A stretch of DNA of 64,000 nucleotides. It comes from Actinomycetospora soli. GTDB lineage: Bacteria > Actinomycetota > Actinomycetes > Mycobacteriales > Pseudonocardiaceae. The position numbers and the translations under genes are program-made. Positions 44,031 to 62,216 of the stretch are shown in pieces; position 1 is the first letter of the stretch; the number at the start of each line of letters is the position of its first letter. The stretch lies in assembly GCF_021026295.1 (NCBI RefSeq), contig NZ_JAJNDA010000002.1, forward strand, positions 372,001 to 436,000, written 5' to 3'. The notes under the pieces are model-generated. The model worked only from the letters and a program-made list of their open reading frames with translations, ran no database searches and had not been told where the DNA came from.

Positions 44031-45263
44031 ATGTCGACGACCGCCGCGCCCGCCCTGCGGCGTGGTGACGCGGGCTTCCGGCGCGTCGCGGTCGGGCTGT
44101 TCTTCGCGGGCTTCACCACGTTCGCGCTGCTCTACGCCACGCAGCCCCTGCTCCCGCGGCTCGTCGAGGTGTTCGCGGTGTCGCCCGGCACGGCCTCGTT
44201 GTCGGTGTCGGTGACGACGGGCGGGCTGGCGCTCGCGATCATCCCCGCCTCGGCGCTCTCGGAGCGGTGGGGCCGGCGGCCGGTCATGGTGTGGTCGCTG
44301 GCGGGCGCCGTGGTGCTCGGGCTGGCCGCGGCGACGGCGCCCTCGCTCTGGCTGCTCCTGGTGCTGCGCGCGCTCGAGGGGGTGGCGCTCGCCGGGCTGC
44401 CCGCGGTGGGCATGGCCTACCTGGCCGACGAGATCGACACCGGGCACCTCGGCGGGGCGATGGGCCTCTACGTCGCGGGGAACTCGGTCGGCGGCTTCGG
44501 CGGGCGCATCGTCGTGTCCGCGCTGAACGACCTCACCGGCTCCTGGCGGCTCGCGCTCGGCGGCATCGCGGGGGTCTCGGCGGTCTACCTGCTCGTGTTC
44601 TGGCTGGTGCTGCCGCCGTCGCGCCGGTTCACGCCCACGCCCGTCTCCGCCGGTGCGCTGGCCGCCGAGGTGCGCTCGCACCTGGGCGACCCGGTGCTGC
44701 GCCGGCTGTTCGCAGTCGGGCTGCTGCTCATGGGCACGTTCGTCTGCGCCTACAACTACGTGGCCTTCCGCCTGCTCGGGCCCCCGTTCTCGCTGTCCGA
44801 CCTCGTCGTCGGGTTCGTGTTCGTGCTCTACGCGGTCGGCACGGTGACCTCCACCGTGGCCGGCCGGCTCTCGGGTCGGCTCGGCGCGCGCACCACCGTC
44901 CTCGCCGCGTGCGGGGTGGCCGCGCTCGGCGCCGTCGCGATGCTCGCGCCCGTCCTCGCCCTGGTGATCGGCGGGCTCGCGCTGCTCACCGTCGGCTTCT
45001 TCGCGGGCCACGCGGTGGCCTCGGCGTGGGTCGGGCGGCGGGCCGAGCACGGGCGGGCCGTCGCCTCGGGGATTTACCTGTTCAGCTACTACGTCGGCTC
45101 GTCGGTCGGCGGCACGCTCGGCGGGGTGGTGTTCGGCGCCGCGGGCTGGTCGGCGACCGTCGGGTTCCTCGTGCTGCTCGTGGCGGGGACGGCGGTCGTG
45201 GTGCTGCCGCTGCGGTCGTCGTCCCCGGGCGCTCCCGACCGAGGGGCACCCTCGGTCGGGTAG
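44031..45263 (+). CDS. MFS transporter (YnfM-like)
   Basis: 410 residues, 12 predicted helices. LLYATQPLLPRLVEVFAVSP and SALSERWGRRPVMVWSLAGA (motif A) plus the mid-protein break are typical of the YnfM/YgaY-type arabinose/drug exporters of the DHA1 group. The last nine residues (PDRGAPSVG) and the TAG stop are encoded inside a copy of the composite palindromic element (45234-45288), so the C-terminus appears to have been set by that element. It follows cutA after 11 bp. Confidence 0.88.
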   Translation: MSTTAAPALRRGDAGFRRVAVGLFFAGFTTFALLYATQPLLPRLVEVFAVSPGTASLSVSVTTGGLALAIIPASALSERWGRRPVMVWSLAGAVVLGLAAATAPSLWLLLVLRALEGVALAGLPAVGMAYLADEIDTGHLGGAMGLYVAGNSVGGFGGRIVVSALNDLTGSWRLALGGIAGVSAVYLLVFWLVLPPSRRFTPTPVSAGALAAEVRSHLGDPVLRRLFAVGLLLMGTFVCAYNYVAFRLLGPPFSLSDLVVGFVFVLYAVGTVTSTVAGRLSGRLGARTTVLAACGVAALGAVAMLAPVLALVIGGLALLTVGFFAGHAVASAWVGRRAEHGRAVASGIYLFSYYVGSSVGGTLGGVVFGAAGWSATVGFLVLLVAGTAVVVLPLRSSSPGAPDRGAPSVG

Positions 45264-45288
45264 ACGGGCGAGGGGCGCCCACCGCCAT
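45234..45288 (+). repeat. Composite palindromic element, copy 1 (overlaps gene end)
   Basis: The hairpin CCCGACCGAGGG...CCCTCGGTCGGG (12 bp, 3-nt loop GCA) is followed by TAGACGGG and GGGCGCCCACCGCCAT. Positions 45237-45288 match 60957-61008 at 43 of 52 bases. The differences within the hairpin stem are paired (A-T replaced by G-C). The last 16 bases are identical to 60993-61008. Confidence 0.75.
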
Positions 45289-45302
45289 CCCGGCGGCCGT
45301 CC

Positions 45303-45355
45303 GGCGAGGGGCGCCCACGGGCGGTTCTTCCGACCGAGGGGTCCCGTCGCTCGAA
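45303..45355 (-). repeat. Composite palindromic element, copy 2 (inverted, degenerate)
   Basis: Read on the minus strand it starts TTCGAGCGACGGGACCCCTC, continues GGTCGGAAGAAC and ends CGTGGGCGCCCCTCGCC, aligning with copy 3. It faces copy 1 with a 14-bp gap, so copies 1 and 2 form an inverted pair between the MFS gene and the sigma-factor gene. GGCGAGGGGCGCCCAC occurs in both at 45267 and 45303. Confidence 0.6.
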
Positions 45356-45385
45356 TCGGACCCGAGCACGCGGCAGACTCGGCGC

Positions 45386-46396
45386 ATGGACGCCGCGCTC
45401 GCCGACGCCACCGATCTCGCCGCCGCGCGCGCCGGGGACGGGGCCGCGTTCGACCGGCTGGTCGCGCCGCTGCGCCGCGAGCTGCACGCGCACTGCTACC
45501 GGATGCTCGGCTCGGTCCACGACGCCGACGACGCGCTCCAGGACGCCCTGCTGCGGGCGTGGCGCGGGATCGGCCGCTTCGAGGGCCGCAGCGCGCTCCG
45601 GTCGTGGCTGTACACGGTGGCCACCCGTACCTGCCTCGACCTCGCCGACGCCCGCGGTCGCCGTGCCCTCCCGATGGACCTGGGGCCGGCGGCACCCGAG
45701 CCGGTCCTCGACGACGCACCCGCCGAGGTCGCCTGGCTGACCCCCTACCCGGACACGGCGCTCGCGGTCGAGGAGCGGGAGTCGGTCGAGCTCGCGTTCG
45801 TCGCGGCGCTGCAGCACCTGCCCGGCAACCAGCGGGCCGCGCTGCTGCTCTTCGAGGTGCTCGGGTTCTCCGCCGCCGAGATCGCGACGACGATGGGCAC
45901 GTCCACCGCGTCGGTGAACTCCGCCCTCCAACGCGCGCGGCGGATCGTGGCCGAACGGGTGCCGCCGGTGTCCCAGGCCCGGACGCTGGCCGAGCTCGAC
46001 GACGCCCGCCTGCGCGCCGTCGTGACCGGCTACGCGACCGCGCTCGAGCAGGGCGACGCCGACCGGCTCGTGGCGCTGCTGACCGAGGACGTCACGTGGT
46101 CGATGCCGCCGCTGCCCGGCTGGTACGCGGGCCACGCGGCGGTCGACGCCTTCACGCGGGCGGTGCCCCTCGGCGCGTGCGGGACGTGGCGCACCGTCGT
46201 CACCAGCGCCAACGGCCAACCCGCGCTCGCGCTCTACCTGAACGGGCCCGCCGTCGCGCAGGGTCCCGACGACCGGTCCTACCGGGCCTGGTCGATCACG
46301 GTGCTGACCCTGCGCGGCGACCGGATCGCCGAGCTGACGTCCTTCCTCGGGCCGGAGCCCTTCACGACGGCGGGTCTCCCGCTCGTCCTCGGGTGA
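45386..46396 (+). CDS. ECF sigma factor with C-terminal SnoaL-like domain
   Basis: 336 residues. Sigma region 2 (about 15-85) is seen in CYRMLGSVHDADDALQDALL and RAWRGIGRFEGRSALRSWLY; region 4 (about 140-190) in LQHLPGNQRAALLLFEVLGF and SAAEIATTMGTSTASVNSAL. Residues 205-330 form a SnoaL/NTF2-like fold (ALLTEDVTWSMPPLPGWYAG), giving the SigJ/TIGR02960-type architecture whose C-terminal domain replaces an anti-sigma factor as the likely control element. No anti-sigma gene is adjacent. ATG at 45386 is used; the upstream region is occupied by two palindromic elements. Confidence 0.88.
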   Translation: MDAALADATDLAAARAGDGAAFDRLVAPLRRELHAHCYRMLGSVHDADDALQDALLRAWRGIGRFEGRSALRSWLYTVATRTCLDLADARGRRALPMDLGPAAPEPVLDDAPAEVAWLTPYPDTALAVEERESVELAFVAALQHLPGNQRAALLLFEVLGFSAAEIATTMGTSTASVNSALQRARRIVAERVPPVSQARTLAELDDARLRAVVTGYATALEQGDADRLVALLTEDVTWSMPPLPGWYAGHAAVDAFTRAVPLGACGTWRTVVTSANGQPALALYLNGPAVAQGPDDRSYRAWSITVLTLRGDRIAELTSFLGPEPFTTAGLPLVLG

Positions 46397-46552
46397 TCAG
46401 CGGTCGTTCGGCTCGAGGTGCTCCTCGGAGGCCGCCTCGCCGGCGGGGAACACGTCCGACACGGCGGGCCGGTCGGGCTCGGACGACTCCCCGGTCAGCT
46501 GCTCGGCGGGCGGGACGACCATCGACGGGTCGGTGTGCTTCTCGGTGCTCAT
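46397..46552 (-). CDS. Small acidic protein
   Basis: 51 residues beginning MSTEKHTDPSMVVPPAEQLT and rich in Glu, Pro and Ser, probably disordered. ATG at 46552 has AGAGGA 6 nt upstream, and the stop abuts the sigma-factor stop on the other strand (46394-46397). The clear ribosome site and consistent codon use support a real gene, but its role is unknown. Confidence 0.5.
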   Translation of the reverse strand: MSTEKHTDPSMVVPPAEQLTGESSEPDRPAVSDVFPAGEAASEEHLEPNDR

Positions 46553-46605
46553 GACGGGTCCTCTCGTGTGGTGGACCCGATGGGCTACCCGCGTCGTGGT
46601 CCCCG

Positions 46606-47163
46606 TCACCTCCTCGATCCCTCCGCGGTGAACACCCGCAGCAGGTCGGCGAGCAGGCCGTAGTAGCCGACAAGGGCCGTCACCTCGACCAGCCGTGCCT
46701 CGCCCAGGACGTCCACCCACGCCCGGTAGGTGTCGTCGTCGACCGGCCCGTGGTGCAACAGGGTGCGGGCCGCGGTGTCGGCGGCGTCCTCCACCGGGTC
46801 CGGCCACGTGACCACGGCGTCCGCGGCGAGCGCGGCGAGCTCGTCGTCGGTGAGTCCCGCCCGGCGGGCGATCGGCTCGTGGGTGGCGCGCTCGAAACCG
46901 CTCTCCCGCACCCCGGCGACCCGGAGGATGACCAGCTCGCGGGCCCGGTCGGACAGCTGCCCGCCGTAGCGCAGCGCCGCGCCCACGGCCTGCAGCGGCT
47001 CCCCGACGGCGGGGTTCCGCAGCATCGCGTCGAACGGACCCCGGAGCGATCCGTCGTCGTTCACCAGCCCGCTGCCCGCCCGCGGCCCCGACGCGATGGC
47101 GTCGTACACCCGGCGTCCGGCCGGGTCGAGCTCGTCGGGGCGCAGGCGCGAGGGTCGGGTCAC
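46606..47163 (-). CDS. Carboxymuconolactone-decarboxylase-family protein (cysteine-free)
   Basis: 185 residues. The CMD core is recognised from AMLRNPAVGEPLQAVGAALR, ELVILRVAGVRESGFERATH and the C-terminal LVEVTALVGYYGLLADLLRV. It lacks any CxxC pair, so it cannot work as an AhpD-type peroxidase; Glu and His residues in the GFERATHEP segment are the likely active-site acids/bases, as in the 4-carboxymuconolactone decarboxylase branch. The substrate is unknown. GTG at 47163 starts it, and it diverges from an oxidoreductase gene by 77 bp. Confidence 0.82.
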   Translation of the reverse strand: MTRPSRLRPDELDPAGRRVYDAIASGPRAGSGLVNDDGSLRGPFDAMLRNPAVGEPLQAVGAALRYGGQLSDRARELVILRVAGVRESGFERATHEPIARRAGLTDDELAALAADAVVTWPDPVEDAADTAARTLLHHGPVDDDTYRAWVDVLGEARLVEVTALVGYYGLLADLLRVFTAEGSRR

Positions 47164-47240
47164 AGGCTCATCGTGCCCGGGAACATCCGCGCCCGGCTCC
47201 GGTTGCCGTCGACAGGTATCGCGACGATCAGGAGCAGACC

Positions 47241-48143
47241 ATGCGCGCAGCGCGCTTCCACCGCTACGGCGGCCCCGAGGTCCTCACGGTGGAGGAGGCG
47301 CCCGAACCGCATGCCGGGCCGGGCTCGATCCGGATCCGGGTCCGGGCCGCCAGCATCAACCCGATCGACTGGCTGTTCCGCTCGGGGGCCCTCGCCCAGG
47401 CCGTGCCCCTCGAGCTGCCCGCCGTCCCGGGGCGGGACGCGGCCGGCGTGGTCGACGAGGTCGGGCCCGGAGTCGAGGGCGTCGAGCCGGGCGAGCCGGT
47501 GTTCGGGCTCGGAGGTCTGGCCGACACCACGGCGGAGTTCGCCGTGCTCACGGCCTGGGCCCCGGTCCCCCCGACCTGGAGCATCGAGGAGGCCGCGGCC
47601 GCCGGGCTCGGCTCGGTGACCGCTCTGCGGGGCCTGGCGCCGCTCGGCGACCTCCGGGGTCGCACGCTCCTGATCGACGGCGTCTCCGGGGCCGTCGGCA
47701 CCGCGGCGGCGGCCGCCGCGCTCCACGCCGGCGCCACGGTGATCGGCACCGCGAGCGAGGCCAACCACGCCGCCCTGCGGGACGCGGGCGTCGTGCCCAC
47801 CACGTACGGCCCGGGCCTGCCCGAGCGGGTCCGGGAGCTCGCCCCGCAGGGGGTCGACGTCGCCCTGCACGCCGCGCCCTCCGACGCCCTGCCCGCGCTC
47901 GTCGAGATCGTCGGCGACCCGACCCGCGTGGTCACCGTGCTCGACCGCGAGGGCGCCGCCCGCCTCGGGACGCACCAGGTCGACGCCGAGAACGACTCGG
48001 CCGTCCTGGCCGAGGCCGCCGAGCTCGGGCGGGACGGCCACTACCGGCCGCGCGTGGCCCACGTCCTCCCGCTCGACGAGATCGTGAAGGCCCACGCGCT
48101 CGCCGAGAGCGGGAGCGGCAAGGTCGTCGTCACCCTGCCCTGA
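47241..48143 (+). CDS. NADP-dependent quinone-oxidoreductase-like enzyme (zinc-free MDR)
   Basis: 300 residues of the medium-chain dehydrogenase/reductase superfamily. The GroES-like N-terminus (RFHRYGGPEVLTVEEAPEP, ASINPIDWLFRSG, VPGRDAAGVVDEVGPGV) lacks the zinc-binding Cys/His residues, and the nucleotide site is LLIDGVSGAVGTAAAAAALH. This is the quinone oxidoreductase/crotonyl-reductase-like branch that reduces activated double bonds or quinones with NADPH. It ends 27 bp before the dnaB stop on the other strand. Confidence 0.86.
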   Translation: MRAARFHRYGGPEVLTVEEAPEPHAGPGSIRIRVRAASINPIDWLFRSGALAQAVPLELPAVPGRDAAGVVDEVGPGVEGVEPGEPVFGLGGLADTTAEFAVLTAWAPVPPTWSIEEAAAAGLGSVTALRGLAPLGDLRGRTLLIDGVSGAVGTAAAAAALHAGATVIGTASEANHAALRDAGVVPTTYGPGLPERVRELAPQGVDVALHAAPSDALPALVEIVGDPTRVVTVLDREGAARLGTHQVDAENDSAVLAEAAELGRDGHYRPRVAHVLPLDEIVKAHALAESGSGKVVVTLP

Positions 48144-48170
48144 GCCGGACCCGCGGACGACCCGGTCGCC

Positions 48171-50792
48171 TCAGCCCCGGGCGAGGTCGGCGAACCGGCT
48201 GTAGTGCAGCTGGTGGGCGATCGGGATCGTCGCGGTGGGCCCGTTGCGGTGCTTGGCCAGGATGATGTCCGCCTCGCCCGCGCGCGGGTCGTCCCGCTCG
48301 AACGCGTCGGGCCGGTTGATCAGCATGACCATGTCGGCGTCCTGCTCCAGCGACCCGGACTCACGCAGGTCGGACAGCTGCGGCTTCTTGTCGGTGCGCT
48401 GCTCGGGACCACGGTTGAGCTGGCTCATCGCGACCAGCGGGATCTCCAGCTCCTTGGCCAGCAGCTTGAGCTGCCGCGAGAACTCCGAGACCTCCTGCTG
48501 GCGGCTCTCGACCTTCTTGCCGGAGGTCATCAGCTGCATGTAGTCGAGGATGATCAGGCGCAGGTCGTGCCGCTGCTTGAGCCGCCGCGCCTTCGCCCGG
48601 ATCTCCATGATGGTCATGTTCGGCGAGTCGTCGATGAACAACGGGGCCTCGGAGATCTCGCTCATCCGGCGGGCCAGGCGGGTCCAGTCGTCGTCGGTCA
48701 TCGTGCCGGCGCGCATGTCGGCCAGACGGATCTTCGCCTCGGCCGAGAGCATGCGCATGACGATCTCGGTGCGGCTCATCTCCAGCGAGAACACCGCGCT
48801 GGTCAGGCCGTGCTTCACGCTCGCGGAGCGGGCGAAGTCGAGCCCGAGCGTCGAGTTGTGCGTGGGCACCATCGCGCGGCCCGCGAGATAGAGGTGGTCG
48901 GAGTTGTCCACCTCGACGCACCGCACCGGCACCGACGGCACCGGGCGCACGTCCGTCACGTAACGGCGCCTCGTCCGGACGTCGGTGACGGCGGGGCACC
49001 GCTCCTTGTGCGCGAGCCGCTTCCGCTCCAGCCGGAAGACCTGCTCGGTGGTGCTGAACGTGAGGAGGTAGGACGCTATGGAAGCCGCGGTCCGACCGCG
49101 GACCGCCGTCGTCGTGAGCGAGCAGCGGAAGCCGAGCGAGACGATCAGCTCCGCCACGTCCTCGGCGAGGCGACGGTCGGTCACCGCGCACTGGATCGCA
49201 CCCGTCGGCAGCACCGTGCCGTCGGAGTCCAGCAGCCCGGCCAGCAGAGCCCGTCGCTGCGCCTCGGACGCACGCAGGTACTGCGCCGGGATGTGCTTGT
49301 CCCCGAGCACGCCGAGAGTGCCGAGCCGCCCCTGCACCGTCCCGGAGGCGTGATGACAGGCCTGGCAGCGGACCGACCCGGAGGTGGGCGCTCCGCAGTC
49401 GGGGCAGGTCGGCCGTCCGAGCGCCGAGTCGAAGCGGGCCCCGCCGCCGCAGGACTGCCCGCAGGTGCGCACCTGCGAGGCGGTGGGGACGAAGGAGGCT
49501 CCGCACACGACGCAGGCGCGCTCGACCGGTCCCGCCTCCGGCGGGAGCCGCAGGCCGTACCGCATCGGCGTCCCGAGCTCCGGCGCGATCAGGCCCTCGG
49601 CCTCGATCAGCGCGGCCACCTCCGGGTCCGCACTCGTGAAACTCGCGCCGGCGGCGGTGCCGTCACCGAGCCAGATGCCGAATGCGTAGGGCGGCACGAG
49701 CAGGTCCTGCTCGGGCAGCTGGAGCGCACGGCAGGTGTCCACGGAGTGGTTGGGGCGGGCGTCCGCGGTCGGGGTCCGCAGCGTCCCCGCGATCTCCTCC
49801 GTGGTGCGCACTGCAGCCGGCACCCGCTCGGAACGGCGCGAGGCGCGGGTGTCGGTGAGCCACTGGTGCTGCGCATCGGCGACGATCACGGTGCCGTCGG
49901 AGAAGGTGACCGCGTAGCAGGGGCGGTCGCTCAGGACGTCCGTGGCCGCGACGACGCGGGTCGGGCGGCCGTCGGCGTCGAGCAGCTCGTCGCCGACCGT
50001 GACCTCGCCCATCGTGGTCCAGCCCGTCGGGGTGGCCAGCGGGGTGTCGAGCGCGAGCGCCTTCCCGATGCCGGGCCTGGCGGCCACGATGATCATCTGC
50101 CCGGCGTGCAGGCCGTTCGTGACGTCGTCGAGGTCGGCGAACCCGGTCGGCACGCCGAACGACACGCCGCCGCGCGAGGCAATCGCGTCGATCTCGTCCA
50201 TCGTCGGCTGCAGGACGTCCTCGAGGGCCACGTAGTCCTCGGTGACGCGCCGGTCGGTCACCTCGTACACGGCCGCCTGGGCGCGGTCGACGATGTCGTC
50301 GGTGTCGGCCCCGTCGCCGCCGTGGTAGCCGAGCTGCACGATGCGGGTGCCGGCCTCCACGAGGCGCCGCAGGACGGCGCGGTCGGCCACGATCTCGGCG
50401 TAGTACGAGGCGTTCGCCGCGGTGGGGACGCTGGCGATGAGCGTGTGCAGGTAGGGCGCGCCCCCGATGCGCAGCAGCTCGCCACGACGCTCGAGGTCGG
50501 CCGAGACGGTCACGGCGTCGGCGGGCTCCCCGCGGCCGTACAGGTCGAGCACGCACTCGTAGACGGTCTGGTGCGCGGGACGGTAGAAGTCGTCGGGCTT
50601 CAGCAGCTCGATGACGTCAGCGATCGCGTCCTTGCTCAGCAGGACCGCGCCGAGCACGGACTGCTCGGCCGCGATGTCCTGCGGAGGCTGCCGGTCGAAC
50701 TCCGGACGCCCCTCGCCGTCGCCGGACCGGGAGCGCTGGCCGCCGAACCCGCCGTCGCGTCCGCCCGCGCCCCGCTCGTCGAGCACCGCCAC
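48171..50792 (-). CDS. dnaB: Replicative DNA helicase DnaB, interrupted by an intein
   Basis: 873 codons encode N-extein (244 residues), intein (402) and C-extein (227), giving a 471-residue DnaB after splicing. The N-extein has the primase-binding N-terminal domain (QPPQDIAAEQSVLGAVLLSK) and the start of Walker A (AARPGIGK). The C-extein resumes STLGLDFAR and has Walker B LIILDYMQLM and the arginine-finger region DLRESGSLEQDADMVMLINR. It unwinds DNA at the replication fork. GTG at 50792 was chosen because GGGAGGAACG is directly upstream; the open frame extends 24 codons further without a ribosome site. Upstream are a LexA-like palindrome (50835-50848) and DnaA-box-like 9-mers. rplI, rpsR, ssb and rpsF follow on the same strand as in mycobacteria. 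Confidence 0.95.
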   Translation of the reverse strand: MAVLDERGAGGRDGGFGGQRSRSGDGEGRPEFDRQPPQDIAAEQSVLGAVLLSKDAIADVIELLKPDDFYRPAHQTVYECVLDLYGRGEPADAVTVSADLERRGELLRIGGAPYLHTLIASVPTAANASYYAEIVADRAVLRRLVEAGTRIVQLGYHGGDGADTDDIVDRAQAAVYEVTDRRVTEDYVALEDVLQPTMDEIDAIASRGGVSFGVPTGFADLDDVTNGLHAGQMIIVAARPGIGKALALDTPLATPTGWTTMGEVTVGDELLDADGRPTRVVAATDVLSDRPCYAVTFSDGTVIVADAQHQWLTDTRASRRSERVPAAVRTTEEIAGTLRTPTADARPNHSVDTCRALQLPEQDLLVPPYAFGIWLGDGTAAGASFTSADPEVAALIEAEGLIAPELGTPMRYGLRLPPEAGPVERACVVCGASFVPTASQVRTCGQSCGGGARFDSALGRPTCPDCGAPTSGSVRCQACHHASGTVQGRLGTLGVLGDKHIPAQYLRASEAQRRALLAGLLDSDGTVLPTGAIQCAVTDRRLAEDVAELIVSLGFRCSLTTTAVRGRTAASIASYLLTFSTTEQVFRLERKRLAHKERCPAVTDVRTRRRYVTDVRPVPSVPVRCVEVDNSDHLYLAGRAMVPTHNSTLGLDFARSASVKHGLTSAVFSLEMSRTEIVMRMLSAEAKIRLADMRAGTMTDDDWTRLARRMSEISEAPLFIDDSPNMTIMEIRAKARRLKQRHDLRLIILDYMQLMTSGKKVESRQQEVSEFSRQLKLLAKELEIPLVAMSQLNRGPEQRTDKKPQLSDLRESGSLEQDADMVMLINRPDAFERDDPRAGEADIILAKHRNGPTATIPIAHQLHYSRFADLARG
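48855..50060 (-). other. Class 3-type intein with LAGLIDADG endonuclease and zinc-ribbon insert
   Basis: 402 residues inserted between Lys and Ser of the DnaB Walker A motif. Residue 1 is Ala, not Cys/Ser/Thr. Block B ends ADAQHQWLT with Trp67; block F is PVRCVEVDNSDHLYL with Cys381; block G is VPTHN followed by Ser+1, with Thr400 and Asn402. Trp, Cys and Thr at these places are the WCT set that defines class 3 inteins. Two LAGLIDADG-like motifs (YAFGIWLGDGT at 125-135, LAGLLDSDG at 273-281) show a homing endonuclease. Between them lie paired cysteines 183/186, 200/204 and 219/222, 232/235, a probable double zinc ribbon. Confidence 0.88.
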
Positions 50793-50834
50793 GATCGTTC
50801 CTCCCACCCGTCCGGACCTGACCGGAGACCCCGT

Positions 50835-50848
50835 CGAACGTACGTTCG
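50835..50848. promoter_or_regulatory. LexA (SOS) box upstream of dnaB
   Basis: CGAACGTACGTTCG is a perfect 14-bp palindrome and fits the Gram-positive/actinobacterial SOS-box consensus CGAAC-N4-GTTCG exactly. It ends 43 bp upstream of the dnaB GTG, close enough to overlap the promoter. Binding is inferred. Confidence 0.65.
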
Positions 50849-51293
50849 CACGAGGGTCCGACAATCACGCCGTGCACCCGCCGGGGCGCACGCTAGGGCC
50901 GTCGCCCCGGGGGCCGCGAGGCGGTGGTGTGCACGCCCCTGTGCATGGACTGGGGACCGACGACCAAGCACAGCCCCCCGAGGTGGGCACACCTGGGGAC
51001 AACCTGTTGGCAACCCGCTCAGATTCGGCGTCCTCCCAGGTCAGAGGGTTGTGCCCCCTGGGGACAACAAGTGGACCGGCATGTCGTCGCGCGAGATCAC
51101 CGGCGTGTCGCGACACGGCCACGGGACGTGGCGGCGACCGGCCGACGGCGGGCGCCGGGCGGCGCGGTGACCGTTTCGTGACCTCTCGGCGCAGCGTGGC
51201 CGAACTGTCCACAGGCGGTGACGACGGGCTTGAGACCCCTCGCCGATCGACGGCCGGGACCCGTCGTCGGGACGGGGCGACCCCGGACACACG

Positions 51294-51329
51294 TCGGGCC
51301 CCGGACCGACGACGCGGTCCGGGGCCCGA
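51294..51329 (-). terminator. rplI hairpin terminator
   Basis: A perfect 15-bp stem (TCGGGCCCCGGACCG at 51294-51308, right arm 51315-51329) with a 6-nt loop lies 16 nt past the rplI stop. It separates the ribosomal-protein operon from dnaB. Confidence 0.85.
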
Positions 51330-51345
51330 GGTGGGACGGGAGGGC

Positions 51346-51798
51346 TCAGATGCCCTGCACGGCCAGCGGGAGCTCGACGCGCACGTCCGGGTGGAGCCGG
51401 ACGTGGACCGAGTGCGACCCGGTGGACTTGATGTGGCCGGAGATCTCGACGAGACGCTTGTCGAGGTTCGGGCCGCCCGCGGACTTCACGGCGGCCACGA
51501 TGTCGGCGGGGCTGATCGAGCCGAACAGCTTGCCGCCCTCGCCGGCCGACTTGGCGGCGACGGTGACCTTGCCGAGGCCCTGGATCTCGCCGGCGACCTC
51601 GCGGGCGTGGTCCAGGTCGCGGATCCGCTTGCCCTCCTGGGTGCGGCGGATCGTCTCGACCTGCTTCATCGCGCCGCGGGTGGCGACGATCGCCAGTCCG
51701 CGGGGCAGCAGGAAGTTGCGCCCGTAGCCGTCCTTGACGTCCACGAGGTCACCGGGGCCACCGAGGTTGGCGACGTCGGCGGTGAGGATGAGCTTCAT
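51346..51798 (-). CDS. rplI: 50S ribosomal protein L9
   Basis: 150 residues. The N-terminal domain [20 protein letters not shown] with [17 protein letters not shown] is the L9 rRNA-binding signature; the connecting helix and C-terminal domain ([20 protein letters not shown]) are complete. It binds domain V of 23S rRNA. It is the last gene of the rpsF-ssb-rpsR-rplI operon and is followed by a strong terminator. Confidence 0.97.
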
Positions 51799-51815
51799 CG
51801 CGTGGGTCCCCTTCC

Positions 51816-52052
51816 TCAGCGCGCGGTCGACGTGTAGGGCAGCAGCGCCATCTCACGCGAGTTCTTCACGGCGACGGCGACGTCCCGCTGGTGCTGCGAG
51901 CAGTTGCCCGAGACCCGGCGGGCGCGGATCTTGCCGCGGTCCGAGATGTACTTGCGGAGGAGGTTGGTGTCCTTGTAGTCGATCAGCTGGTTCTTGTCCT
52001 TGCAGAACGCGCAGACCTTCTTCTTGGGCTTGCGCACCGGCGGCTTCGCCAT
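51816..52052 (-). CDS. rpsR: 30S ribosomal protein S18
   Basis: 78 residues: basic N-terminus, then [20 protein letters not shown] and [20 protein letters not shown], the S18 signature. It has the CxxC plus later Cys zinc-binding ('C+') pattern, meaning it is the zinc-dependent form; a zinc-free paralogue may exist elsewhere, as in mycobacteria. It binds next to S6 in the ribosomal platform. It lies between ssb and rplI with short gaps. Confidence 0.97.
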
Positions 52053-52085
52053 GGTGTCTCTATCTCCTGGTGATGATTCTGGGGA

Positions 52086-52960: not shown

Positions 52961-53057
52961 GAGAACCACTCACCTCCCATGGGCTGGCGGCCACGGACGA
53001 TCCGTGGCAGGAGGGAACTCGGTCCGACCAGTCTACGGGCGGTGCCCGAGACGACGA

Positions 53058-53089
53058 CGGGCGGGCCGGGGTGACCCCCGACCCGCCCG
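53058..53089 (-). terminator. Hairpin terminator after the secreted membrane-anchored protein gene
   Basis: CGGGCGGG (53058-53065) pairs with CCCGCCCG (53082-53089), and an inner CGGGG/CCCCG stem follows across one mismatch, with a 4-nt loop. It lies 30 nt past the stop at 53119 and protects the rpsF promoter region from read-through. Confidence 0.7.
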
Positions 53090-53118
53090 AGTTGGTCCCT
53101 CGTGGGCTCCGACGCAGC

Positions 53119-54162: not shown

Positions 54163-54348
54163 CAGCTTCGACCCCTTCTCACACCAACGCTGCCCGGCCG
54201 CCTCCCGGTCCAGCACATGCCCCGTGCGCGAACGTCGGAGGAGACGGTCGACCTCCCCAACGAGGCACTGCTCCGGGGGTGACGCGCACATCACCGATCC
54301 GTCACGGTCGTGCCACGGGGGGTGCGCCCCGGCCTGGGCCGGGCGGGC

Positions 54349-55968
54349 CTACCCGTTCCCGGATCGAGTGGTGACGGCGGCCCGGACGTCGCCCACCGGG
54401 GTGCGGGAGGACCCGGCGTCGGGAAGGCCCCTCCGTCGCGCGAACCAGGGCGCGTCGGGGGCACCGTCGAGGACCCCGCCGTCGGGATCGGCCCCGACCA
54501 CCGGCGGGCCGGGACGGCCAGGACGCCGCCGGACCGGGTCGAGCCCGGGGCGCAGCACGCTGCGCACGATCAGCACGGCGACGGCGATCACGGCGAGGTC
54601 GCGGAGCACGACCGCGCCGTAGAACCACGGCGCCGGCAGGCCCTTGTTGTTCGTGCCGAGGTAGTAGTACATCCGCGGGACCCAGACGAACGCGTCGACC
54701 GCCATCCAGATCAGCAGCGGCTTCCAGCGCGGGTAGGCGAGCACCGCCAGCGGGATCAGCCACAGCGAGTACTGCGGGCTCCACACCTTGTTGGTCAGCA
54801 GGAACGCGGCGACCACGAGGAACGCGATCGCCGCCAGCCGTGGGCGTACGGGCGCCCGCCACACCAGGACGGCGATCGCCACGCAGCACAGGGCGAACAG
54901 CACCGCGGTGACCGCGTTCAGCACGCTCGGCGCCTGGCCGGGGGCGAGGGGACCGTCGAACCCCGACCATCCCGTCAGGGCCGCGACGATGTTGTAGAGC
55001 GAGTCGGGGTCCGCGGCGCGGGTGGAGTTGAGGCGGAAGAACTCCCACCAGCCGGTCGGCGCCAGGATCGCGACGGGCGCGTTGGCCACCACCCAGGCGC
55101 CGATCCCGGTCAGCGCGACCGTCCACCACGACCGCATCCGCCCGGCGCGCAGGCAGAGCAGCAGCAGCGGGAACAGCAGGAACAGCGGGTAGAGCTTCGC
55201 GGCGGCCCCGAGACCGAGGGCGAGCCCCGCGAGTCCGGGTCGGCGGCGCGACCACGCGAGCATGCCGAGGGTCGCGCCCGCGACGGCCAGCGTGTCGAAG
55301 TTGGTGAACGCGTGCACCGCGACCAGCGGGGAGACCGCGGCGATCGCCGCGTCCCAGGGCCGGCCCGGGCGCAGCCGCACCATCGCCCACATGACACCGA
55401 GCCACGCCAGCGCCAGCCAGAACGCGGACAGGTCGAAGTAGACGACCACCGGCAGCGCCGCGGGCAGCCCGAGCGTGAGCCAGCCCGCGGTCAGCCGGGC
55501 GTTGGCCCACTGGAAGAACCCGGTGAGCACCGGGTACTCCATGTAGCGCACCTGGGTGCTGCCGTCGTCGCGCTGGTCGACCCAGCTGGTCACGTACGGG
55601 ACGCCGCCCTGGTCGAGGCGCTCCGCGGTGTAGAGCGGGACGGTGTCCGAGTAGCACATCGCCACGTACTGGCGGCTGTCGCGCCAGTCGAGCTGGAGCT
55701 GACCGGAGTCGTCGACGTACTGCTGCAGGCACGGCGACTTCGCGAACCAGCCCAGCGCCAGCACGATCGTCGCGAGCAGCAGCACCACCCGCAGCGGCGT
55801 GAAGAAGTTCGCGCGTCCGACGACGGCGTGGGCACCGACGGGTCCGCCCACCGCGGCGCTCGCGGCGCGGACGAACCCGTCGTCGTGGGCCGGGAGCACC
55901 CGGGACGCCGCGTCGAGCGACTCGGGGTCGTGCGCGCGGCTGCGGGTCGGCGGGGCGTCAGCGGACAC
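54349..55968 (-). CDS. GT87/DUF2029-family integral membrane glycosyltransferase
   Basis: 539 residues with about ten membrane helices. The first extracytoplasmic loop contains [20 protein letters not shown] (with the acidic residue after an aromatic, as in GT-C enzymes), and later motifs [20 protein letters not shown] and [20 protein letters not shown] match the family of polyprenyl-phosphate-mannose-dependent mannosyltransferases. The mycobacterial gene next to ponA1 (Rv0051) is in the same place and of the same type. A cell-envelope glycan role is likely. GTG at 55968 begins 5 bp after the penicillin-binding protein gene stop, so they are co-transcribed. Confidence 0.85.
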
Positions 55969-55973
55969 GCGGG

Positions 55974-58643
55974 TCAGCCACCGGGGAAGAAGTCACCGAA
56001 GTCGGGTCTTCCCCGGTTGCCGTCGTCGTTCCCGTCCCCGCCGTTGTTGTCCCCGTTGTCGCCGTTGTTCCCGTTGTTCCCGTTGTTGTCGCCGTTGTTC
56101 CCGTCGCCGTTGTTCCCGTTGTTGCCGTCGCCGTTCTGGCCCCCGTAGTTCACGCAGACCCCGTCGACGCAGTACTGGCCGTTCTGCCCGTCGGGGTTGT
56201 TCGGGTCCTGGCCCTCCGGCGGCTTCGGCGGCGCGGGCGCCGTCCCGATCGCCTTGAAGTCGGAGAACTGCTGCACCGGCTCGTTGCGCAGCGCGGTGTT
56301 CATGTAGCGCTGCCAGATCTGGCCGGGCACGCCGCGGCCGTAGATCGGCCTGCCGTTGGAGCTCTTGATCGGCGAGTTGTCGTCGGTGCCGACCCAGACC
56401 GCGGTGGACATCTGCGGGGTGTAGCCGACCGTCCAGGCGTCGTTGTTCTGGCCCTCGACCGAGGACTGCACGGTGCCGGTCTTGCTCGCGACCGGGCGGC
56501 CGCTCGAGAGCGGGATCTGCGAGTGCGAGGCGACGTCGAGCATCGACTCGGTGACGTTGCGGGCCAGCTGCTGGCTCATCCGCTGCTCCGCGGCGGGGAC
56601 CCCGCCGTCGTAGAGCACGCGCCCGTCGGCCGTCGTCACCCGTGTGACCATGTGCGGCCGGTGGAACTGGCCGTCGGCGGCGAAGGTGGCGTAGGCCGAG
56701 GCCATGTCGCCCGGGCGCACCTCCTTGTCACCGAGGGCGATACCGCCGCTCGGGCTGTCGAGGGCCGCGGAGATCCCGGCCTGGTGGGCGGCGTCGGCGA
56801 CCTTCTGCGGCGTGACGTCGACCCCCAGCTGGTAGAAGACCGTGTTGATCGAGAGCGTCATCGCCTCCTTCAGGTTGCAGTTCGGGCAGCTCTCGCCCTC
56901 GGAGTTCGAGACCTTGGTGCCGGCGATCTCCTTCGGGGACGACCCGTCGTAGGTCGTCCCGAGGCCGATCGGCGGGTTCTTCTCGAGGCCGGCGAGCAGC
57001 ACGAACGGCTTGAACGACGACCCCGGCTGCCGCTTGGCCTGCGCGTAGTCGAAGCCGGAGCCCTCCTCGCCGCCGTAGTAGGCGACGATCGAGCCGGTCC
57101 GCGGGTCGACCGAGACCAGGGCCGTGCGCAGGTTCGCGGGCTGGCCCTGCAGCGTCCTCTCCGCCGCGTCGGCCGCCTGCTGCTGGAGCTTCGGGTCGAT
57201 GGTGGTCTCGACCTTCAGGCCCTCCTGGTTCACCTGCTGCTCGGTGATGCCGTAGGAGGCGAGCTCGTCCTTGACCGCCGTGACGATGTGGCCGCGGTCG
57301 TTCGCGGGGATGCCGGACCGGCGCTGGGAGGGCGGGATCGTCGTCGGGAAGACGGCGGCCTGGCGGTCGGCGCGGGAGAGCCAGTTCTTCTCGACCATGC
57401 CGTCGAGGACGTAGTTCCACCGCTGCTGCGAGCCGCCGCGGTCGACCGCCGGGTCCCACTTCGACGGGGCCTGGATCAGCCCGGCGATCATCGCGCCCTC
57501 GGACGGCGACAGCGTCTCCACGGGACGTCCGAAGTAGGCCTGCGAGGCGGCCTGGATGCCGTACGCGCCGCGACCGAAGTAGATCGTGTTCAGGTAGTTC
57601 TCGAGGATCTGCTCCTTCGACTGCTCCTGGTTGATCTTCGCCGCGATCACCACCTCGCGGTACTTGCGCCACAGCGAGTACTCGTCGCCCACCAGCACGT
57701 TCTTCACGTACTGCTGGGTGATCGTCGACCCGCCGCCGACCCCGCCCTGCGCCTGGTTCCAGGCCGCACGGGCGATGCCGATCGGGTCGAAGCCGTAGTT
57801 GGTGTAGAAGCTGCGGTCCTCCGCGGAGGCCACGGCGTGCTGCACCGCGAGCGGCACCTGGGAGAGCGGCACCTTGATGCGGTTGCCCTCGGCCTGGGTC
57901 AGGCTCGCGAGCGGGCTGCCGTCCGCGTAGGCGATCGTCGCCACCTGGTTGTTGGTCGCGTCGTCCGGGCTCGGGATGCGGAAGAAGATCCAGCCGACGG
58001 CGAACGCGAGGACCGGCCCCAGGATCAGCAGGGCCAGCAGGACGTAGACGACCCGCCGGATGCGCCGTCCCCGACGCTTCGGGTCGGGCTCGGAGTCGTC
58101 GTCACCGCCGCGGACGGGCGGGGTCCCGGGCGGCGGGGTGCGCGAGCCGCCGCGCCCCGGCGCAGCCGTGCCCTGCACGACCTCGGTCGCCGCGGTCGGT
58201 GCCGTGCCGGGCCGACCGCCGGCGCGTGCCCCCGCGCTCGCGCGGGTGGGGGAGGTCGCCGCGGCGGCGGTCGCGAGCGGCCGCGACCCGTCGTGGGTCA
58301 GCAGGCGCGGCTCGGGACGCTGGTCCGCTGCGGGGCGCCCGGCATCGGGGAAGGGACCGCCGACGCGCGTCGCGTTCGGGCCGCCCGGCCCGTTCCCGAC
58401 GGCGGGTCGGGCCGGCTCCGCGCCGGGCGTCGGTCCGACGCGGGTCGGCGCCGGGCCGGGCCGGCCGTTCGCGCCGCCGGGGCCGTGGGGTGCGCCGCCG
58501 TTGGCACCGTCGGGGCCCCGGCCGGGCGTCCGCGAGGGCGGGACGGGCGACCATCCGGGCGGCAGGTTGCCCCGGGGACCGACCGGCGGCGGCGGCGCGG
58601 CGCCGTCGCCGGGACGACGGTCACCTCGACGGTCGTCGGTCAC
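55974..58643 (-). CDS. ponA: Class A penicillin-binding protein (PonA1-like)
   Basis: 889 residues. A ~190-residue Pro/Arg/Gly-rich cytoplasmic head and one membrane helix (about 195-220) precede the GT51 transglycosylase ([35 protein letters not shown]). The transpeptidase follows: [15 protein letters not shown] holds the SxxK nucleophile, SINTVFYQL the SxN, and SKTGTVQSS the KTG triad. The C-terminus is a ~100-residue Gly/Asn/Asp repeat tail after a [13 protein letters not shown] linker. It polymerises and cross-links peptidoglycan outside the membrane. GTG at 58643 is used. Location and neighbours match mycobacterial ponA1. Confidence 0.93.
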
Positions 58644-58707
58644 GTGGCGCCTCCCAGGAACATCTCGGCCGGGTGCGGCGTCGCGTCAGGTCGCGCCCAC
58701 CGCGGCG

Positions 58708-59115
58708 TCAGGGCGAGGCCGTGCGACGCCGACGGCGACCCGATCCCGAGGCGTCGTCCGCTCCCAAGACGTAGGACTGTACGAGGTGGTTCCACCGGCA
58801 CGTACGGCAGACCTCCACCACGTGGACCGTGAACTCGCCCGCCGCGTCGTCCAACCGAGCGATCTCGTCGGCCGAACGGGCGGACCCGGACACCGGACCG
58901 AGCCGGTCACCGAAGACCCAGGACACGTTGACGAGGTCGTCGCGGCGGCACAGCGGACACGGCGTGGTGGTCGGCAGACCGTGGTACGCGGCGGCCTGGA
59001 GCAGGTAGGCCCCGGCGTCGCAGGCGTCCGTGGTCGAGGTGCGTCCGGCGGCCACGTCGGCGAGGTGCGCGCGACGCTGCAGCGCGTAGTCGACGACCTG
59101 ACGGGGTGGGCGCAC
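58708..59115 (-). CDS. DUF5318 zinc-ribbon protein
   Basis: 135 residues starting VRPPRQVVDYALQRRAHLAD. Two CxxC knuckles (CPLCRRDDLVNVSWVFGDRL and VVEVCRTCRWNHLVQSYVLG) would bind one zinc, and the SGSARSADEIARL middle segment is conserved in the family. The mycobacterial gene beside ponA1 (Rv0049) encodes the same protein. Its role is unknown but its constant position next to ponA suggests an envelope function. GTG at 59115 matches the family N-terminus; the open frame extends upstream across the PadR promoter without a ribosome site. Confidence 0.85.
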   Translation of the reverse strand: MRPPRQVVDYALQRRAHLADVAAGRTSTTDACDAGAYLLQAAAYHGLPTTTPCPLCRRDDLVNVSWVFGDRLGPVSGSARSADEIARLDDAAGEFTVHVVEVCRTCRWNHLVQSYVLGADDASGSGRRRRRTASP

Positions 59116-59193
59116 GCGTTCCAGCGTAGCCAGCGACCGGCCCGGGCGCGCCGGTCGCGGTGTGACGAGATCGTCGCGGAGGGTCGCCCGATG

Positions 59194-59206
59194 TATCGCC
59201 GCGATA
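59194..59206. promoter_or_regulatory. Candidate PadR operator
   Basis: TATCGCCGCGATA is a perfect 13-nt dyad inside ATGT-N8-ATAT, close to the ATGT/ACAT spacing of known PadR sites. It lies 43 bp upstream of the padR start and 79 bp upstream of the divergent DUF5318 start, so it could control the padR-ino1 operon. Confidence 0.5.
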
Positions 59207-59248
59207 TGGTCGGCCGGTCGTGCCGGAGCGGAGCGGGAGGAGGGCGTC

Positions 59249-59833
59249 GTGCTGGAACTCGCCGTCCTCGGCCTCCTCCACGAGGCCCCCATGCACGGCT
59301 ACGAGCTGCGCAAACAGCTCCACGCCCGCCTCGGGCCGCTGCGCGCGTTCTCCTGGGGGTCCCTGTACCCGACCCTGCGTCGGCTGCAACGTGCCGCCCT
59401 GATCGCGGAGCAGGCACCGGCCGGCGAGGAGCGCAGCTGGGGCCGCCAGGGCCGCCGCAGCCGCAAGGTCTACGAGATCACCGCGGAGGGCAAGGACCGG
59501 CTCGACGAACTGCTCGGCGAGGCCGGCCCGCAGGCCTACGACGACGACGGGTTCGGCGTGCACCTGGCGTTCTTCTCCCGCACGCCCGCCGAGGTGCGCA
59601 TGCGCATCCTCGAGGGCCGCCGCCGCCGCGTCGAGGAACGCCGCGACGGGCTCCGCTCGACGCTGACGCGCGCGGGCGAGCAGATCGACCGCTACACCCG
59701 CGAACTGCACCGCATCGGCTTGGACACCACCGAGCGCGAGGTCCGTTGGCTCGACGAGCTCATCGACCACGAGCGGTCGCTGAGCCCTACCGCCACCGAC
59801 GAGGCGACGGGCCGGACCCGTCGTCCGGAATAG
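59249..59833 (+). CDS. PadR-family transcriptional regulator
   Basis: 194 residues. The winged-helix domain is clear: [20 protein letters not shown], then [18 protein letters not shown] and [20 protein letters not shown], followed by the long C-terminal dimerisation helix of PadR subfamily 1/2 ([20 protein letters not shown]). GTG at 59249 has GGAGGAGG about 8 nt upstream. It lies 16 bp before ino1 and in the same order as in mycobacteria (Rv0047c-ino1), so it probably regulates inositol synthesis and itself. Confidence 0.9.
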
Positions 59834-59849
59834 CAGAAGGAGACCATCC

Positions 59850-60923
59850 ATGGGTCAGGTCCGAGTGGCCATCGTCGGTGTGGGCAACTGCGCCGCGTCG
59901 CTGGTCCAGGGCGTCACGTACTACGCCGACGCCGACCCGGCCGCCCGCGTGCCGGGTCTCATGCACGTCGACTTCGGCGGCTACCACGTCCGCGACCTGA
60001 CGTTCGTCGCGGCGTTCGACGTGGACGCCAAGAAGGTCGGCCAGGACCTCGCCTCGGCGATCGTGTCGTCGGAGAACAACACGATCAAGATCGCCGACGT
60101 CGCCCCGACCGGCGTGACCGTCCAGCGCGGCCACACCTACGACGGCCTCGGCCGCTACTACCGCGAGACGATCACCGAGGCCGACGAGGAGCCGGTGGAC
60201 GTGGTCGCGGCGCTGCGCGAGGCGCGCGTCGACGTGCTCGTGTCGTACCTGCCGGTCGGCTCCGAGGAGGCGGACAAGTTCTACGCGCAGTGCGCGATCG
60301 ACGCGGGCGTCGCCTTCGTCAACGCCCTGCCCGTGTTCATCGCGTCCGACCCCGAGTGGGCGCAGAAGTTCACCGACGCGAACGTGCCGATCGTCGGTGA
60401 CGACATCAAGTCCCAGGTCGGTGCCACGATCACCCACCGCGTGCTGGCGAAGCTGTTCGAGGACCGGGGCGTCCACCTCGACCGCACGATGCAGCTGAAC
60501 GTCGGCGGCAACATGGACTTCAAGAACATGCTCGAGCGCGAGCGGCTGGAGTCGAAGAAGACGTCGAAGACCCAGTCGGTCACCTCCCAGATCGACCGCG
60601 ATATGGGCAAGGACAACGTCCACATCGGCCCGTCGGACCACGTGCCGTGGCTGGACGACCGCAAGTGGGCCTACGTCCGCCTCGAGGGGCGCGCCTTCGG
60701 GGACGTGCCGCTGTCGCTGGAGTACAAGCTCGAGGTCTGGGACTCCCCGAACTCGGCCGGCATCATCATCGACGCCGTCCGCGCCGCGAAGATCGCGCTC
60801 GACCGGGGCATCGGCGGGCCGCTGCTCGCGACCTCGTCGTACTTCATGAAGTCGCCGCCCGTGCAGTACCGGGACTCCGTGGCCTACGACGCGGTCGAGT
60901 CGTTCATCCGCGGCGAGTCCTGA
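59850..60923 (+). CDS. ino1: Inositol-3-phosphate synthase
   Basis: 357 residues. It converts glucose-6-phosphate to 1L-myo-inositol-1-phosphate with internal NAD redox, the first step to phosphatidylinositol and mycothiol. The NAD loop [20 protein letters not shown] is at the N-terminus; [20 protein letters not shown] and [14 protein letters not shown] are the conserved active-site motifs. This is the short archaeal/actinobacterial form. ATG at 59850 has AGAAGGAGA 8 nt upstream. The product explains the mycothiol-type enzymes in the window. The gene ends before a copy of the composite element. Confidence 0.96.
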
Positions 60924-60954
60924 GGCTCCCCCTGCTGGCGTGGCCGGCCCCCGT

Positions 60955-61008
60955 TGACCGAAGGGCACCTTCGGTCGAATAGATGAGCCGTGGGCGCCCA
61001 CCGCCATA
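60955..61008 (+). repeat. Composite palindromic element, copy 3
   Basis: Hairpin GACCGAAGG...CCTTCGGTC (9 bp, loop GCA) within 60955-60980, spacer AATAGATGAGCC, then the GTGGGCGCCCAC palindrome (60991-61002) and CGCCAT. It matches copy 4 (62165-62216, minus strand) at 48 of 54 positions and copy 1 at 43 of 52. It begins 32 nt past the ino1 stop and probably also serves as its terminator. Confidence 0.8.
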
Positions 61009-61035
61009 CGGCTCGGGCGACTCGTCGTACCGCGC

Positions 61036-61080
61036 GAAGGGCCCCTTCGGTCGATCTACTCGACCGGAGGGGCCCTTCGT
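61036..61080 (-). terminator. 20-bp hairpin related to the element, terminator of the minus-strand gene
   Basis: Arms 61036-61055 and 61061-61080 match at 19 of 20 positions with a 5-nt loop. The left arm contains CGAAGGGCCCCTTCG, identical to 62121-62135. It lies 11 nt past the stop codon at 61091. Confidence 0.8.
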
Positions 61081-61090
61081 TCGAGTCGGG

Positions 61091-62044
61091 TCAGCCGACG
61101 ACGACGGCGGGTCGGGGTCGCAGGCGCGCCTGCTCGAGCGCGGCCCGCAGCTTGCGACGGACCGCCGCCGGGTCCTCCCGCAGCTCGCGCGGCGTCACGG
61201 GGACGACGACGATGCCCGCGGCGATCATCTCGGCCTGCCGTCGCATCGTCGCGTCGAACTTCTCGAGATCGGCGTGGTAGGCGAACGAGTTGAGCTCGAT
61301 GGCGAGCGCGACGCCGTCGACGAATCCGTCGGCGATGACCCTCGTCCCGTTCGGCAGGCGCACGGCGACGTTCCACCGGATGTCGGCGAACTCCGGCATG
61401 GCGAGGACCAGGTCGCGGAGCCATCCCTCCGCCGCCGACCGGACGCCGTCCTCCAGCTCGACCACGACCTGGCGCACCAGCGCCGCGCCACGACAGGATC
61501 CGGCCTCCAGCTCCGCCCGCAGCGCCGCGACGGTGACCATGCGACGTTGGACCGCCTCACAGAGCAGAGCCCGGACCTCGTCGATGCGCAGGAGCCGGCG
61601 GGCGGCGTCGACGAGCGCACGCGCGAGCGGCGCGCACCGGATGCCGTCCCGCACGATCGGGTGGGGCGGCAGACGCGACGTCCGCTCGACGAGGAGGAAG
61701 CTTTCTGACCGGCGGCGCTGGTCGTGCGGGATGAGGACGTGGACCTCGTCGTGGTCGGGGACCCGTTCCAGTCCGTAGAGCCGGCAGGCGGCGAGCCCGG
61801 TGACCTGCGCGGCGTCCCCACAGACCAGGAGCGCGGCGACCAGCCGTTGGTACACGGTGAGCACGCCGCGGGTGAGGGCGATCAGGCCGGCGAGCGGCCG
61901 CCACCAGAGCCCGCCGACCTTGCGACAGCGGAACGCGATGGTGCTCGACGGCACGCCGAGCGCGAGAAGGGTTCGGACGAGGATGAGGCGCTGGGGGGCG
62001 GCGTCGGACACCGCGTCCCAGTCGACTGCTGCACGAGGGGGCAC
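61091..62044 (-). CDS. AbiEi-like/DUF559-type hypothetical protein
   Basis: 317 residues. The N-terminal ~60 residues resemble the winged-helix AbiEi antitoxin domain (RCRKVGGLWWRPLAGLIALT), the middle matches the helical region of type IV-antitoxin-like proteins, and the C-terminal ~120 residues have a Vsr/DUF559-like endonuclease fold with RVIADGFVDGVALAIELNSF AYH and VVVPVTPREL. No toxin partner is adjacent, so it is better regarded as an orphan. GTG at 62044 is assumed; no good ribosome site is seen. It lies between leuS and ino1, where mycobacteria have other genes, and is bordered on both sides by copies of the composite element. Confidence 0.65.
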   Translation of the reverse strand: MPPRAAVDWDAVSDAAPQRLILVRTLLALGVPSSTIAFRCRKVGGLWWRPLAGLIALTRGVLTVYQRLVAALLVCGDAAQVTGLAACRLYGLERVPDHDEVHVLIPHDQRRRSESFLLVERTSRLPPHPIVRDGIRCAPLARALVDAARRLLRIDEVRALLCEAVQRRMVTVAALRAELEAGSCRGAALVRQVVVELEDGVRSAAEGWLRDLVLAMPEFADIRWNVAVRLPNGTRVIADGFVDGVALAIELNSFAYHADLEKFDATMRRQAEMIAAGIVVVPVTPRELREDPAAVRRKLRAALEQARLRPRPAVVVG

Positions 62045-62115
62045 ATGGGTGCTGACGCAGCCGGTGCCCGTCCGGATCCATCCGTCATCGCGAGGGGCGC
62101 CCGCGTGCGGCTCTA

Positions 62116-62141
62116 TTGAGCGAAGGGCCCCTTCGCTCGAA
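62116..62141 (+). repeat. Hairpin half of the composite element
   Basis: TTGAGCGAAGG...CCTTCGCTCGAA matches 60955-60980 at 23 of 26 positions. Two of the differences are a paired C-G to G-C swap in the stem (GACC/GGTC to GAGC/GCTC). A GGGCGCCCAC palindrome follows at 62171-62180 as part of the inverted copy. Confidence 0.7.
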
Positions 62142-62164
62142 ACGGCCGGGCACGCAATGACCCT

Positions 62165-62216
62165 GGCGATGGGCGCCCACGGCCCGTCTATGCGACCGAA
62201 GGTGCCCTTCGCTCAA
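62165..62216 (-). repeat. Composite palindromic element, copy 4 (inverted)
   Basis: Read on the minus strand it starts TTGAGCGAAGGGCACCTTCG, continues GTCGCATAGACGGGCCG and ends TGGGCGCCCATCGCC, 89% identical to copy 3. It lies 22 nt past the leuS stop, in the orientation expected of a leuS terminator. Confidence 0.75.

Follow-up and report, generated by a model that had tools for sequence, protein, structure and literature searches.

The existence of palindromic repeats at gene ends is long established, with no consensus on what they do, and a trait of the REP/BIME sequences is that they bind gyrase, IHF or DNA polymerase I. In the accessible sections of two studies (PMC2817692, PMC3733652), REP/BIME are presented as genus-specific palindromic units at gene 3' ends, single or in dimers and of mosaic composition, and the segments between REPs are described as varying substantially in length (PMC2817692). 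Bidirectional 3' ends are reported for Streptomyces clavuligerus in the available text of PMC8269248, and the DNA uptake sequences of Neisseria and Pasteurellaceae are introduced, in the available part of PMC2267715, as a repeated word with inverted pairs and a possible role as terminator. The open-licence PMC articles returned by our searches contain, in the portions accessible, no description of the family presented here or of stepwise helical spacing of gene-end palindromes.

The window (the whole stretch of 64,000 nucleotides that was analysed, positions 372,001 to 436,000 of contig NZ_JAJNDA010000002.1 from Actinomycetospora soli) carries a repeat that the initial annotation had described as a composite palindrome of ~52-55 nt. 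The element is larger and is built from palindromic units of 51 bp, in most cases two and otherwise one. The reading that suits it best, and in which we place slightly better than even confidence, is that of bidirectional gene-end terminators coupled to a phased site on double-stranded DNA.

Architecture of the element and its copies in the window

The module H is a 21-bp palindrome, GANCGAAGGGNNCCTTCGNTC. The module P, GGCNNNGGGCGCCCNNNGCC, is a diverged palindrome that occurs as an alternative to H in the second arm, and a unit is composed of H, a TAGA-type loop and the second arm (H or P). Judged from the sequences, the typical element appears to comprise two units, unit 1 being H-loop-P and unit 2 H-loop-H; two 51-bp units are the best reading because the 21-mer containing P falls into the same register as H, and because the linker (as GAATAGACG) is similar to the loop of H-H (as GAGTAGATC). 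The copies in the window are as follows:

45237..45287, plus strand: unit 1 (H-loop-P) of an inverted pair; H 45237-45257, P 45267-45286
45302..45352, minus strand: second unit (H-P) of the inverted pair; H 45332-45352, P core near 45303-45322
60956..61006, plus strand: unit 1 (H-P); H 60956-60976, P near 60986-61005
61032..61082, strand not assigned: unit 2 (H-H), the long hairpin, located between two convergent genes and spaced 76 bp from unit 1
62088..62138, minus strand: H-P unit; H 62118-62138, P core near 62091-62105
62164..62214, minus strand: H-P unit, head to tail with 62088-62138 at 76 bp; H 62194-62214, P 62165-62184
42399..42421, strand not assigned: previously noted "fragment", which we do not count as a member

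The four full copies and the hairpin at 62116-62141 reported in the initial annotation are all present, and it is their extent that has to be revised: the copy at 60956-61006 continues into an overlooked second unit (61032-61082), and the supposed "hairpin half" is the H of the complete unit 62088-62138. Inverted pairs had been proposed at two sites, of which 45237-45352 is indeed inverted (H-P-P-H), whereas 62088-62214 runs head to tail on the minus strand. The putative fragment at 42399-42421 has no H beside it and is absent from the model matches up to E 10. The three unit pairs of the window are spaced 65 bp (the inverted pair), 76 bp and 76 bp, and the mean column identity in the alignment of five units is 80%. 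The TAG of the copy at 45237 serves as stop codon for the MFS-type gene 44031-45263; the Pfam names assigned to neighbours of the elements are leucyl-tRNA synthetase, MFS and sigma-70.

The head-to-tail form H-P H-P recurs at another locus (L097), and single H-H and single H-P units also exist; since single H-H units occur, the pair is not obligatory, which we count against the explanation favoured here. In 12 full copies the distance from left H to right H, including a few flanking bases, is 123-124 or 134-135 nt. Two other features were noted in passing: a match to F6 TB sRNA at gathering score (RF01791, 53.5 bits) at 25713-25768 of the window (plus strand), and sequences resembling CCGCGAGTGGCACACCACGCAGGTCCGG, possibly a third repeat, that adjoin elements at L085 (near 4130), L091 and L092.

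Copy number and distribution

The genome contains the H word GANCGAAGGGNNCC 90 times and its reversed control once, and by eye 89 of the 90 matches fall inside clusters of the covariance model. The 20-bp P pattern has 18 genome sites (control: 2), all within model clusters; both counts greatly exceed what chance would give. The combined linker and P pattern was found exactly at 14 sites of the same genome, with one mismatch at two and with two mismatches at four (allowing three gives noise, to judge from the control of this pattern); the H palindrome is in place at 19 of these 20 sites, the exception (L017) resembling coding sequence. The genome search with a covariance model that the initial annotation had proposed was carried out with R1, built from 12 full copies, and revealed 99 matches up to E 10, which form 50 clusters, far more than the copies of the window. 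Retrieved for closer analysis were 47 loci, which hold all of these clusters but the weakest one on C12 (49 of 50), together with 80 places matched by R1 in relatives.

At E<=1e-4 all 18 Actinomycetospora genomes, A. soli included, have R1 matches, and none was found in 13 genomes of other genera (one of the same family and twelve of the order). A 20-mer spanning linker and P gave 27 exact stretches in a collection of 84,980 species, in which the records of the window itself are perhaps not included, and all 27 are titled Actinomycetospora. Among 150 genomes of the family, 51 had an R1 match, six of them from the same genus, and 22 of 46 genera were represented; the extra-genus loci that were read carry other long hairpins, except for genome G042, which shows the same geometry, and elsewhere in the family the hairpins are weaker and mostly different. 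The element is a genus-wide family in Actinomycetospora.

Spacing of the two units

The initial annotation made no mention of a stepwise spacing of the units. In 92 full elements from 12 species, with the start distance searched over 55-110 bp, the two units start 64-66 bp apart in 39 cases, 73-76 bp in 51 and 85-86 bp in two (64 bp: 3; 65: 34; 66: 2; 73: 2; 74: 3; 75: 32; 76: 14; 85: 1; 86: 1). These classes lie about one helical turn apart (the DNA helical repeat is 10.5 bp), a spacing that is observed as such and that presumably reflects the helix. The spacing samples share descent; the Rayleigh values are tiny but ignore relatedness, and the period is loosely set, 9.5-11.5 bp fitting about equally with only two main peaks. 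Among the R1 matches listed for relatives (own genome and opposite-strand repeats excluded), 132 lengths are distributed as 122-125 in 39, 131-136 in 90, and 140, 144 and 145 in one each; here R1, itself built on copies of 124/135 nt, picked the H loci and could favour these lengths. By eye, two loci of G002 (L270, L271) have spacings of 65 and 75, fitting the classes, and one of G145 (L275) has a spacing of ~99, outside them.

Distances within a unit are fixed, as follows from the dominant centre spacings: neighbouring H and P centres are 29.5 apart in 74 of 148 cases, most others belonging to the between-unit classes 35.5 (26), 45.5 (20) and 46.5 (12), and neighbouring H centres are 30 apart in 115 of 151.

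Pairing and terminator features

Compensatory changes had been proposed to maintain the short hairpin within H, and this could not be upheld: its pair 3-19 is formed in 32 of the 92 full copies, compared with 36.8 expected by chance, and pairing inside H1, H2 and H3 gave z-scores of -1.2, -1.8 and -4.7 in column shuffles of the same elements; the short hairpin is accordingly rejected as a structure kept by covariation. The H-P unit is likewise rejected as an RNA hairpin (H1-P pairing, z -0.2). The covariation lies between H2 and H3 of the long hairpin, where 1740 of 1932 pairs are formed against 1655 expected (z 10.6; 92 full elements, 12 species; the column shuffles ignore relatedness). The single pairs formed in excess of expectation are H2.12-H3.10 (76 vs 51.8), H2.19-H3.3 (70 vs 47.4) and H2.15-H3.7 (66 vs 52.9). 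H1.19-H3.3 also covaries (61 vs 47.0), perhaps by way of the likeness between H1 and H2, and we count it against our explanation. Within single genomes, five long-range pairs were tested: in G007 (27 copies) three of them have p values of 0.015-0.027, and in G000 (16 copies) and G016 (13 copies) one of the five does. The long H-H hairpin is real, and the short H hairpin and P are kept as sequence.

Like intrinsic terminators, the elements place a GC-rich hairpin shortly after a stop codon. Two results count against the favoured explanation: no run of three T was found within 12 nt on either side in any of the 92 elements, i.e. there is no U-tract, and a consensus scan reported no terminator-like site at the elements. 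As the initial annotation had surmised, the repeat corresponds to no named family: Rfam has no match at the elements at gathering score within the window, and at E<=1 in five loci the only matches touching an element are far below gathering score. A glycine riboswitch aptamer (66.4 bits) was seen at L090, 754-858 (plus strand), ~3 kb from an element.

Gene-end location and orthologous sites

The 128 parsed elements of 13 species lie in convergent gaps (73), tandem gaps (46), divergent gaps (2) and inside called genes (6), with one unassigned, the genes being called by a crude home-made codon-bias caller. The earlier statement that all copies are at gene ends nearly holds, as the convergent and tandem gaps together account for 119 of the 128. 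Among gaps of 80-600 bp that lack an element, in the same loci and the window, 16 are convergent, 102 tandem and 102 divergent (the Fisher values ignore relatedness). For 56 convergent sites, with outliers beyond 300 nt removed, stop codon and element are separated by a median of 17 nt on the side of unit 1 and of 14.5 nt on that of H-H; of the tandem gaps, 19 have H-H as the first unit and 11 have unit 1. The description of an amplified, terminator-like and structured repeat is borne out by the many intergenic copies, their gene-end position and the long covarying hairpin.

Many copies are found between the same genes in several species, which allowed a comparison of 49 orthologous pairs in the same orientation and five in the opposite one (the pairs share species and sites and are not independent). 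The identity of H is 0.88 in orthologous pairs and 0.86 between unrelated copies, and that of equal-length spacers 0.49 and 0.42, respectively. The modules are conserved while the spacers are nearly unalignable, and are thus maintained at their sites and not through recent copying. Spacer lengths of orthologs differ by 0-3 or 10-11 nt, and distances from the stop codon drift. Orientation is flipped in 5 of the 54 pairs, and at some orthologous site one unit is lost.

In all 18 species a hairpin follows the inositol-phosphate synthase gene (PF01658; 60923 in the window) at its 3' end, which by eye is a full element in eight, a hybrid hairpin in one, the H-H type in two, the K repeat (see below) in three and an ordinary GC hairpin in four; at this site the element takes the place of an ordinary terminator. 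The gene between two elements of the window (61091-62044, minus strand) has no Pfam match, and a DUF559 assignment for it was rejected on that ground. In G004, G005, G006 and G012 the inositol-phosphate synthase gene is directly followed not by this gene but, by eye, by a sequence resembling the end of the leucyl-tRNA synthetase gene.

The probable sister repeat K and other genera

A second repeat, K (GAGGGGANCC-N26-TCCCCTC), is probably a sister of the H-H unit, as it is 43 nt long like the H-H core; it has 24 and 22 matches on the two strands of the own genome and none in the control. K palindromes at gene ends were seen in G000 and relatives at L085 (6345-6590), L056 (near 3950), L063 (near 4005) and L314-L370. 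A second GAGGGGA comes after K at 49 distinct places, distributed over 7 of 18 genomes, with G010 supplying 27 of the 49; over the range searched (55-85 bp) the spacing is 63-66 bp in 28, 67-68 in two and 74-75 in 15, the remaining four being 59, 72, 72 and 77.

Genome G042, from another genus of the family, has a unit built on GAGGCGAACGGCACTTTCGCCTC, with H-H H-H arrays (L258-L264, L371-L375) that use a different palindrome in the same 30 / 34-36 / 30 geometry. Its 20 junctions, expressed as start distance (junction plus the 47-bp core read from L258-L262), measure 63-65 in 14 cases, 68-69 in three and 75 in three; the three that fall between classes count against our explanation. Both the K and the G042 searches ran without guidance from the model. 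In G141 (L266), ~30-bp units resembling CGAAGGGGCCCTTCGTCACGCTGGGCGCAA form a tandem array.

Proposed mechanism and alternative explanations

According to the reading favoured here, the H-H unit would form a long hairpin terminator without a U-tract that acts both ways, as suggested by its position, its covariation and its exchange with ordinary hairpins. In the partner unit (H-P, or K as its sister form) it would be the DNA sequence that is conserved and not an RNA stem, and the two units would stand in a fixed rotational relation on the helix, 65, 75-76 or 85-86 bp apart. A candidate protein, or a pair of dimers, may bind both units cooperatively on double-stranded DNA, and such binding could either strengthen termination or fix the local DNA topology where transcription units, often convergent, meet. 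Phasing on double-stranded DNA is suggested because single-stranded RNA has no evident reason for spacers that change in steps of 10-11 nt only, and the similar spacing steps in K and G042 make recognition at this level likely. Descent alone appears insufficient, as it does not easily explain why lengths stay in class when the spacer sequence is lost and why some orthologs differ by one step. The stepwise spacing, kept despite loss of the spacer in two related repeat families and a second-genus genome, is a testable constraint; if it holds, a DNA-level function can be separated from a purely RNA-level one, and there is a direct handle on the protein. We consider it possible, if rather unlikely, that a phase-locked twin-palindrome site on double-stranded DNA exists with different sequences in more than one genus of Pseudonocardiaceae, where a putative architectural protein or topoisomerase would dock at transcription-unit ends and couple termination to topology.

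Plain repeated bidirectional terminators, in which the RNA hairpin alone is of importance and the spacing classes go back by descent to a few ancestral forms, are to our mind unlikely. They would account for the gene-end location, the exchange with ordinary hairpins, the H-H covariation and the fact that other genera carry repeated long hairpins of their own, but hardly for orthologous spacers that are near background and yet keep their length class, for orthologs that differ by 10-11 nt, for the similar spacing classes of K and G042, or for a conserved H-P unit that does not pair.

Transposon-end synapsis at short lengths can give phasing (the Tn5-type length effect), and the phasing could be such a trace in a MITE- or REP-like mobile repeat with a putative transposase, as which the initial annotation had regarded the element. 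The inverted H ends and amplified copies are consistent with this, and flips, gain or loss of units, K-type repeats as replacement and exchange for other hairpins at orthologous sites make turnover or mobility possible. We nevertheless find this explanation quite improbable. The Y1/RAYT-type transposase family PF01797 has no match in any of the 18 Actinomycetospora genomes, with matches in 5 of 14 controls, which rules out a RAYT partner and membership of a REP-RAYT system; the 81 proteins flanking the copies of the own genome include no recurrent family that could serve as a partner, there being one similar pair besides genes counted twice; and the spacers are not common to copies, unlike those of recent copies, while the modules are conserved in place at orthologous sites. 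The copies have the behaviour of resident sites under selection.

A role at the RNA level only, whether as a structured non-coding RNA or in 3' processing or stability, is very improbable, for despite the long covarying H-H stem the elements match no Rfam family, conservation of an RNA stem is not seen in the partner unit, and steps of about one helical turn across the spacer are hard to explain for single-stranded RNA.

Comparison with known systems

Similarly to DNA uptake sequences, the element is a repeated word in inverted pairs and a possible terminator, but the H word is almost confined to elements and not scattered. With MITEs it shares its size (about 116-137 bp), its non-coding character and its palindromic ends. 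Its outer arms are both H, but extended terminal inverted repeats were rejected, as the outer flanks are pyrimidine/purine biased and do not covary. It differs from MITEs in that its spacers are not common to copies, no adjoining transposase was found and the modules have long been kept in place; at one site, other species bear other hairpins and not an empty site. Like the bidirectional intrinsic terminators of actinobacteria, the elements are GC-rich hairpins at gene ends and in convergent gaps, whereas their stem sequence is conserved across loci and species, and they have a conserved partner unit and fixed spacing classes.

The likeness to REP/BIME lies in the many intergenic palindromes at gene 3' ends, in units that are specific to a genus and occur singly or as dimers, and in their mosaic arrangement. 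The unit length and stepwise spacing are fixed, unlike in REP/BIME, and the genus has no RAYT-type gene; compensatory changes, typical of the REP palindrome, are not seen within H, but they are in the long H-H hairpin; and compared with the GTAG/CGTC tag beside the REP stem, the TAG loop (GAGTAGATC, GAATAGACG) is common in the element but lies between the arms and is often inverted. Should the phase-locked site prove to be real, a role resembling that of BIME and gyrase would have been arrived at independently in actinobacteria.
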